Shown: piece by piece, positions 44,801 to 47,800 of the stretch
How the letters are laid out: each line of letters starts with the position of its first letter
Position numbering within the stretch: position 1 is the stretch's first letter
Source of the DNA: Urechis unicinctus
Lineage: Eukaryota; Annelida; Polychaeta; Xenopneusta; Urechidae
NCBI GenBank assembly: GCA_034190875.2
Contig: CM067348.1
Span: 11,479,346 to 11,543,345 of the forward strand
Reading direction: 5' to 3'
Length of the DNA stretch: 64,000 nt
Made by a program: the position numbers and the translations under genes
Notes under the pieces: generated by a model
What the model was told of the DNA's origin: nothing
The model's input: only the letters and a program-made list of their open reading frames with translations
The model's database searches: none

Positions 44801-47800
44801 CCTTCACGCGACGCCTAAACACGTGACCTACCAACATATGTCGCTTACTCGCTACACCTTCACGCGTCGCCTGCCTACACACGTCGCATACACGCGTCGC
44901 CTACCTACCCACGTCTCCCACACACGTCACCTACACACGTACCCTATCTACAAACGTCGCCTACATTCGTCGCCATCACACGTCATTTATACACGTAGCA
45001 TCTTTATGCTAAGAATGTTTCCCTGACCCGTTAACGGCTCCGGCTGTCCGGCCGTCTGCTCATGACCACACTGTGGCCACGCCCGTAGTGTATAGTGCTG
45101 TGATATGGGCTGCAGATGATTGCCATGCCGCATCAGTGGTTGGAGGGCAACTTGCCGGTGAGTGCCAAGTGCTGCGTATGTGACAAGACATGTGGCAGTG
45201 TTCTCCGGCTACAAGACTGGCGATGTCTCTGGTGTAAGAGTATGGTAAGTGTTTCTCTAGTCTTCCTCTTCTCTTCTCTCCATATTTTCTTATTCACTCA
45301 TTTCTACTTATCTCACTTTTCCCCCATTCTCTTCTTTTCTCTTGTCTGTCCGTCATTATTTCCCCTCTATGTCTCCTCTCCCTTTTTATCTCTTTCCTGT
45401 TCTCGCTCTGTTTCTCTTTTTCACAGCTCTGATCTCGTTTTCTCCCGTCCCTGGTCTTTCTCTTTTTCTCCTTTTACTATTTATCTATCATTCATCTGTT
45501 CTTTCCATCTTCTATATCTCCATTTTCTCATGTATGTTTCATTCCTCTATTTTGCTTTATTTTAAATGGCATTTAATTCTCTATTTTGTCTTTTTTTCCA
45601 ATGCCATTTTACATTCGCTTACGCTCCCCTTCATTTTGTATTCCTCTTTATGCCTTTCTGCTATTAATCAGTCCTGATTGCGCTATCGATCAGCTCTGCA
45701 GGACCTTTCCCTGAATTGCCTTCTCATCTCCCTGTGTTGTCATCCTTAACTTGTTTCCCTCTTGTTTCTCTTTCCTCTCCCTCCCCACACTCAATAATTG
45801 AACTCGTTTTTGGCCTCCCATTCTTATCTTTCTCACTATCTCTCACACTGTTACATTTATGCAAACACAGTTTAACAAGGTGCTGTTCCTATTAAGGGTG
45901 ACGCAGGGGCACGCTAGAGTAAGAACGCCTTCCAGCTTCCTGTTGATAATGTTCAAGGGTCTGGTGACCATTAAATGAGTCCATCTCCTTGTTCAGGTAC
46001 ACGCTGCTTGTAAAGCCTCCGTGGCTCGTTGCTGTTCACTCGGTCACTGTCGTATCTCCATCCTACCTCCCACCGCCATCAGCAACCTCGACTCAGACGG
46101 CTTCTGGCGAGCGCATAAACTGCCAGGGACAAGTCCGCTGCTTGTGTTTGTCAACTCAAAGAGCGGAGACAACCAGGTAGGATAAAGGTGTGATTGGCAG
46201 ACAACTAGGTGGGATAAAGGTGTGATTTGCAGACAACAAGGTGGGATAAAGGTGTGATTTGCAGACAACTAGGTGGAATAAAGGTGTGATTGGCAGACAA
46301 CTAGGTGGGATAAAGGTGTGATTGGCAGACAACTAGGTGGGATAAAGGTGTGATTTGCAGAAAACAAGGTGGGATAAAGGTGTGACTGGCAGACAACAAG
46401 GTGGGATAAAGGTGTGACTGGCTGACAACAAGGTGGGATAAAGGTGTGACTGGCTGACAACAAGGTGTGATAAAGGTGTGATTGGCAGACAACTAGGTGT
46501 GATAAAGGTGTGACTGGCTGACAACAAGGTGGATAATGGTGTGATTTGCAGATAACTAGGTGGGGTAAAGGTGTGATTTGGAGATAACCTTGTGGTATCT
46601 TGTGGTGTTTTGGGGCAGTCATTAAGGTGGGATAAAGGTGTGAATGGTAGATAACCAGGTGGGATAAAGGCGTGATTGGCAGACAACTTGATGAGATAAA
46701 GATGTGATATAGAGATAACCAGGTGGGATAAGGTTGTAATGCTGTGATAATATACGAAGTTGTGTAGGAGTTATTTACATGACCTAATAGTTCACCATTT
46801 ATCATTCTTTTCCACTTATTTCCCTAATGTGTGAGTAGTTTTATGGATTTATTCTTTTAAGCTACAACTTCCTTGCGTTACACAAAGCTGTTGGTTTAAA
46901 ACTTGATGCTTCATCTTTCAGGGAGTTAAAATGTTACGCAAGTTCAAGCAGCTTCTAAATCCGGCTCAGGTGTTTGATCTGACAAATGGCGGTCCTAAGA
47001 TTGGGTGAGTTGCTGGTGATGAGAGTAGCTGAATGCAAATGTGCATCTCATATCAATCAGTATTCCATGCTGTCTCTCAATAAGGAAGGATACCACTGAC
47101 TTAGTAGCTCAGGTGTTGGTTGAGACTTAAGAGTGTGAGTGTGGTATTAGTTGTCTTTGTTGAATTGATTCATCAATGTGATTGGTATGTTGAATGAGTT
47201 GAAGGTGATGCTGATTGTTAGCTAGTATTGATTGTTCCTAATATTTTGATTGTGATGCTGATTGTTAGCTTGTATTGATTGTTCCTAGGATGCCAATTGT
47301 GATGCTGATTGTTAGCTGGTATTGATTGTTCCTAATATTTTGATTGTGATACTGATTGTTAGCTGGTATTGATTGTTCCTAGGATGCCAATTGTGATGCT
47401 GATTGTTAGCTGATATTGATTGTTGCTAGGATGCTGATTGTGATTGGGATGTCGATTATGGTGGTGATATGAGGCAGATTGTTTGTATGTTTCATGTGGT
47501 TGCTTGCTGTGGTTGTGTCCAGGTTGCGCCTCTACCAAAGCTTCGACTCATTCCGTGTGTTAGTGTGTGGAGGAGATGGCAGTATTGGCTGGGTTCTAAA
47601 TGAGATCGATACGCTAGGCCTACACAAACAGGTGCCCGTTTTATCAGCCCGCCATATCCTCGACCGGGGACCGTAGTAATTACATGAATGCATCATAATG
47701 TTTGTGTCATGCAGACTGGGCATGTGTTGAACATCATAATGTTTGTTTTTGAAACAGAGCATTATGACTGGATTGAAATGCGTATAAATCCAGGTTTCTC

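Follow-up and report, generated by a model that had tools for sequence, protein, structure and literature searches.

A 32-bp minisatellite of 17.6 copies lies across an exon-intron junction (46167..46731, + strand) in the 64,000-nt stretch of DNA analyzed here (the window), and carries the last 10 bases of an exon, together with its 5′ splice site, into the following intron. The gene concerned is, on the domains of its predicted protein, a delta/eta-type (type II) diacylglycerol kinase, and the affected junction falls within the part of the gene that encodes the catalytic domain. We consider it likely that this is a mirage-type, junction-spanning intronic minisatellite that has enlarged its intron, with an accidental overlap of the donor and with copies that are tolerated by the gene.

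Host Gene and the End of Exon E7

A total of 28 exons (E0–E13 and E15–E28) were traced on the + strand using translation and splice phase. Three of these (E0, E13, and E28) were traced at one end only, and the boundaries of E17, E18, and E23 were set by eye and are accurate to ~2 bp; a donor for E13 was looked for and not found. The protein of the joined exons displayed PH, C1 (two stretches), DAGK_cat, and DAGK_acc domains via Pfam, the DAGK_cat match being a single stretch at residues 253–359 (E = 1.6e-26), and the closest solved chain was that of DGK delta (1r79). An additional exon starting 109 bases beyond the window end is presumably SAM-like, an assignment made from a motif and by eye rather than with a profile. 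No Rfam families matched the window at gathering scores. In the host assembly (1.19 Gb in 926 contigs), a genome-wide search for DGK catalytic exons returned seven matches, including the present gene, and the tandem repeats around these matches were listed.

The exon in question (45997..46176, + strand; protein VHAACKASV...) is the eighth of the exons traced, which begin downstream of the gene's 5′ end, and becomes E7 when counted from E0; it was delineated by translation and splice phase, with Pfam run on the joined protein. The terminus of E7 at 46176 reads ...GGAGACAACCAG|GTAGGATAAAGG, and sequence, reading frame, and donor score all place the true 5′ splice site at CAG/GTAGGA (46174..46182, + strand; junction 46176/46177, with the slash marking the splice junction). 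The C-terminal residues of E7 are ...NSKSGDNQ, and E8 (46922..47004, + strand; acceptor TTTCAG), traced by the same means, opens with GVKMLRKF. These exons bound intron 7 (46177..46921, + strand; 745 bp) and join in phase 0 (CAG/GTAGGA and TTTCAG/GGA), leaving the DNQ/GVK protein junction intact after residue 266 of the joined protein, i.e., within the DAGK_cat stretch. Given the phase-0 frame and the position of this joint within DAGK_cat, the true donor is fixed. The initial annotation had considered that the exon might end elsewhere, which would leave the array wholly intronic; the DNQ/GVK joint inside DAGK_cat argues directly against this.

Structure of the Array

The array was reported by TRF with a period of 32, 17.6 copies, 82% matches, and a score of 695. 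This is far beyond chance, since the best TRF score in 200 dinucleotide shuffles of 45997–47004 was 50. The array measures 565 bp, including 10 bp of exon, and ~180 bp of intron 7 remains without it. The description first given of this locus, a 32-bp unit that begins inside the exon and takes the exon tail and donor into the intron in about 17 further copies, was borne out on both counts: the TRF boundaries (46167–46731) include 10 exonic bp, and 17 in-register copies were counted after the true donor (leaving out one off-register row at 46704), of which 15 keep AG/GT.

The first unit (46167..46198, + strand), comprising 10 exon and 22 intron bases, is founder-like by column comparison, and its protein-constrained exon tail suggests that it was the founder of the array. 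It is followed by 11 regular decoy copies (46199..46549, + strand) with TAG/GTGGGA or AAG/GTGGGA donors and variants thereof, the junctions of which run from 46209 to 46529 at a spacing of exactly 32 bp; further along, steps of 31 and 35 bp also occur. The last six copies form a degenerate tail (46550..46731, + strand; both groups were delimited by copy comparison), in which an exon-like CAG/GTGGGA is found at junctions 46659 and 46723 and AG/GT is lost at 46592 and 46691. The exon-like CAG is therefore a feature of the first unit and of two tail copies, with TAG or AAG in the middle copies. Similarity to the exon extends 10 bp inward, up to the A at 46167, and then breaks: exon positions −11 and −13 to −22 match in 0 of the 11 regular copies, and position −12 matches in all 11. 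The most likely direction of copying is out of the exon and not into it, because the exon bases of the array encode part of the catalytic domain.

Anatomically, the array corresponds to a mirage, in that its unit spans an exon-intron boundary and many of its copies keep AG/GT. An error of assembly, affecting the array itself or its repeat number, has in our estimate a near-negligible probability. Long arrays are prone to miscounting, and the repeat number of the lancelet PGBD5 gene is reported to differ between two genome versions (PMC3902484); however, the differences among the copies at E7 are structured and end in a degenerate tail, and a genome search with the array matched the locus once; the three remaining hits were weak and fell in two arrays built from different units, of 29 bp.

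Strength of the Decoy Donors and Consequences of Their Use

The true donor was scored against its copies, a check proposed in the initial annotation. By the donor matrix used, the true donor (8.50) was the top GT site within E7 and intron 7, but 7 of the 17 copies scored 8.06–8.19, i.e., within 0.5 bit of it, and these seven outscore 14 of the 23 authentic donors of the gene that were scored (those of E0, E13, E17, and E23 were left out). A second donor-like site, AAG/GTGTGA (7.65), is present in at least 13 of the 18 units, and GGTGGGATAAAGG is present in 9 of the 17 copies. The RNA of 46140–46740 folds less than 20 of 20 shuffles, so the donor sites are not concealed by predicted structure, and concealment of the decoys by RNA folding was rejected.

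Such exposed sites, with AG/GT in 15 of the 17 copies and with seven scores close to that of the true donor, are what would be expected if the copies were working alternative donors, producing exon extensions of ~32 nt and, with them, protein isoforms. This was the proposal made at the outset, when the decoys were described as frame-neutral, and it fails on the reading frame. A step of 32 is 2 mod 3 and not a multiple of three, and an in-frame TAA (46183..46185, + strand; found by translation), shared by every decoy-extended exon, precedes every decoy. All extensions read CAG GTA GGA TAA, and 17 of 17 simulated messages stop at the third codon past the exon end, after two extra codons, so that exon extension yields no longer kinase. 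Amphioxus mirages are reported or suggested to leave splicing undisturbed (PMC3087553, PMC3902484). We regard working alternative donors as extremely improbable. Use of a decoy would instead give a message cut short early in the catalytic domain, which NMD would probably remove.

The combination of strong decoys with a guaranteed early stop could also serve as an unproductive-splicing switch, where the decoys, perhaps tuned by repeat number, would direct messages to NMD and set the dose of the kinase. We judge this very unlikely, given that an in-frame stop occurs within 10 codons at 8 of the 23 donors of the gene, and an early stop after a donor is as such nothing special here. The donor columns of the copies are also not kept above the rest of the unit, with a mean conservation over the 17 copies of 0.856 in donor columns −3 to +6 versus 0.862 in the other columns; compared with the remainder of the unit, the decoy donors have been neither retained nor selectively degraded. 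The absence of a conservation signal in the donor motif also weighs against the idea that the G-rich, purine-rich copies aid the upstream donor by serving as intronic splicing enhancers or as docking sites for U1, a role with which the recurrence of GGTGGGATAAAGG and of AAG/GTGTGA would be consistent and which has some precedent in a minisatellite reported as tied to splicing regions in C. elegans (PMC4039745). Moreover, the array is only one of many in the neighboring introns, the units of which are unrelated, and we consider this role highly improbable. Tolerated copies behind a single exon-attached donor thus remain our preferred account of intron 7.

Arrays at Other Junctions and the +3 Difference

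The true unit in intron 7 shows fixed differences from all 11 regular copies only at donor positions −3 and +3, and the chance that both would land in the donor 9-mer is 0.07. At +3, the true donor has an A and 17 of 17 copies have a G. These fixed differences speak against plain neutrality and could reflect selection on the decoys. A second donor-side array in the gene, with a 37-bp unit (55160..55529, + strand; identified with TRF and donor scores), starts at the E15 donor GAG/GTAAAG (junction 55162/55163). Here, the true unit differs from all eight internal copies at +3 and +25, and 8 of the 9 copies carry T in place of the true donor's A at +3; the chance of fixed differences in the donor, worked by hand, is ~0.43 for this array. 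The internal copies (GAG/GTTAAG) score 2.95 versus 7.06 for the true donor, and the final, ninth copy (GTAAGG) reaches 10.60, above the true donor.

The loss of the +3 A in both donor-side arrays is a loose hint that donor-copying minisatellites persist only once their copies have been disarmed, through a weaker donor spread by concerted evolution under selection. If true, one strong site would be left, at the exon. We think this unlikely, considering that 7 of the 17 copies in intron 7 fall short of the true donor by less than 0.5 bit and that the last E15 copy is stronger than the donor it was copied from.

The initial annotation had likened the E7 array to one on the acceptor side near 14791, and the likeness is real. 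An array of 44-bp units (14790..14956, + strand; identified with TRF and sequence comparison) duplicates the acceptor along with 13 bp from E1 (14944–15006), the PH-domain exon. The AG is lost in one of its three upstream copies, and another copy matches the true site base for base across 35 bp.

Comparison with Amphioxus Mirages

The anatomy of the E7 array is already known from the amphioxus "mirage" minisatellites of Adh3 (Canestro et al. 2002, as described in PMC3087553 and PMC3902484); what is new is an additional case. Published examples of mirage anatomy come from the Adh3, globin, and PGBD5 genes of amphioxus, with troponin C cited as a further case, and in the accounts given in these two papers, both intron boundaries can be copied, many copies carry splice signals, and splicing is reported or suggested to be normal (PMC3087553, PMC3902484). 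Somatic instability has been reported for the Adh mirages (via PMC3087553 and PMC3902484). The Adh3 mirages differ from the E7 array in the gene, and perhaps in the animal.

The mirages of the amphioxus globin genes BflGb6 and BflGb9 are alike in that 5′ and 3′ boundaries are duplicable and many repeats keep AG/GT, and also in that the cluster edges escape homogenization, as seen in the CAG edges and the TAG or AAG middle of the array at E7 (PMC3087553). Their units are much longer, at 150–160 bp, with six and three units in two haplotypes of BflGb6, compared to 32 bp and ~18 copies at E7; they have also been proposed as creators of introns (PMC3087553), whereas the E7 array shows no new intron. 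In the lancelet PGBD5 gene, the first of the 60- and 108-bp repeats abuts the 5′ splice site and the copies are imperfect, as at E7, although the units are longer and fewer (PMC3902484). Intron gain via tandem duplication of AG/GT-containing segments, an idea attributed to Rogers (PMC3087553), likewise starts when a segment that holds a proto-splice site is duplicated; such a duplication creates an intron, whereas that at E7 enlarges an existing phase-0 intron. Among the titles and abstract openings listed in searches of open-access literature, we found no junction-spanning minisatellites outside amphioxus. The published cases that we examined are all from cephalochordates. Searches of the host genome gave no match to COX1, to GFP, or to mollusc haemocyanin, the latter two without a responding positive control, and 13 matches to C1q. 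If the host is not a cephalochordate, arrays across splice junctions would be an outcome of minisatellite growth in general rather than something peculiar to lancelets. The locus offers a natural test of how the spliceosome chooses among 16 AG/GT sites, mostly spaced at 32 nt, with seven of the copies near the true donor in score, and also of intron enlargement by minisatellites.

Minisatellite Load and Placement of Arrays

We surveyed the 26 introns with both ends traced (12701–64000, plus the 109 bases that follow the window). Arrays were present in 15 of 15 introns >400 bp and in 0 of 11 introns of ≤300 bp, a contrast that is partly due to length alone, because longer introns more easily contain one array. 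Arrays make up at least half of the intron in seven of the 15 (E0/E1, E2/E3, E7/E8, E15/E16, E22/E23, E24/E25, and E27/E28), including 95% of E22/E23, and 7–47% of the length of the other eight. The array-free remainders of E0/E1 (123 bp), E7/E8 (180 bp), E15/E16 (57 bp), E22/E23 (66 bp), and E27/E28 (207 bp), i.e., 57–207 bp, fall in the size class of the array-free introns. Minisatellites account for 31% of the window, compared to a mean of 4.8% (median 1.8%) across 20 sampled stretches of 10 kb each, a density ~6 times the mean, with shares uncorrected for N (present in seven of the 20 stretches, and >4,000 N in four of these). In the four 10-kb stretches flanking the window (L005–L008), the share is 12–48%.

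Against this background, the overlap of arrays with splice sites is not demonstrably above chance: upon random re-placement within each of the 26 introns, with 15 bp of exon allowed, 3 junctions were covered versus 2.27 expected (P 0.40), in a test of modest power. The outcome varies with the exon overlap allowed (2 versus 1.45 with 10 bp, and 1 versus 0.79 with 5 bp), the power being modest to low, and a 24-intron version gave 2 covered versus 1.49 expected. Arrays within 10 bp of a junction numbered 5 versus 3.6 expected (P 0.28), and within 25 bp, 8 versus 5.6 (P 0.125). Circular shifts, applied to array edges at 48 junctions, gave P values of 0.60, 0.095, 0.10, 0.12, and 0.23 for 5, 10, 15, 20, and 30 bp, respectively. 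A near copy (≥15/20) within 1 kb was found for 2 of 51 junction 20-mers versus 15 expected at random window positions (three boundaries are off by 1–2 bp), indicating that arrays avoid junctions when the exon halves are counted. An origin of arrays targeted to splice sites is not supported, with coverage near that of random re-placement.

We therefore return to the mirage-type account, in which intron 7 would have begun as a short ancestral intron of ~180 bp, the length that it has without the array. A tandem duplication of a 32-bp segment, the left edge of which fell by chance 10 bp inside the exon, would have enlarged the intron, and slippage or unequal exchange may then have multiplied and partly homogenized the copies. 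As the conserved protein suggests, the spliceosome would take the first, exon-attached donor. The remaining donor-like copies would be tolerated, as any use meets the stop found in every simulated message and, presumably, NMD thereafter. No special targeting need be invoked for the exonic overlap, since it is near the level of random placement in a minisatellite-rich gene.

Some further repeats and open frames were also noted. Tandem repeats of 21 bp (seven codons), encoding PPGNDSL-like and DSVDPRK-like peptides, lie at 48676–48988 and 49942–50035 within long, maybe coding open frames, and minisatellites may thus have invaded a protein linker as well. A short repeat of the CCCGTCGTACAAG type has similar copies at two unrelated places (17151–17207 and L029:3057–3135) and perhaps belongs to a dispersed element. 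Lastly, the long E1/E2 intron contains open frames on the − strand (19592–21284) that resemble a transposon-derived protein.
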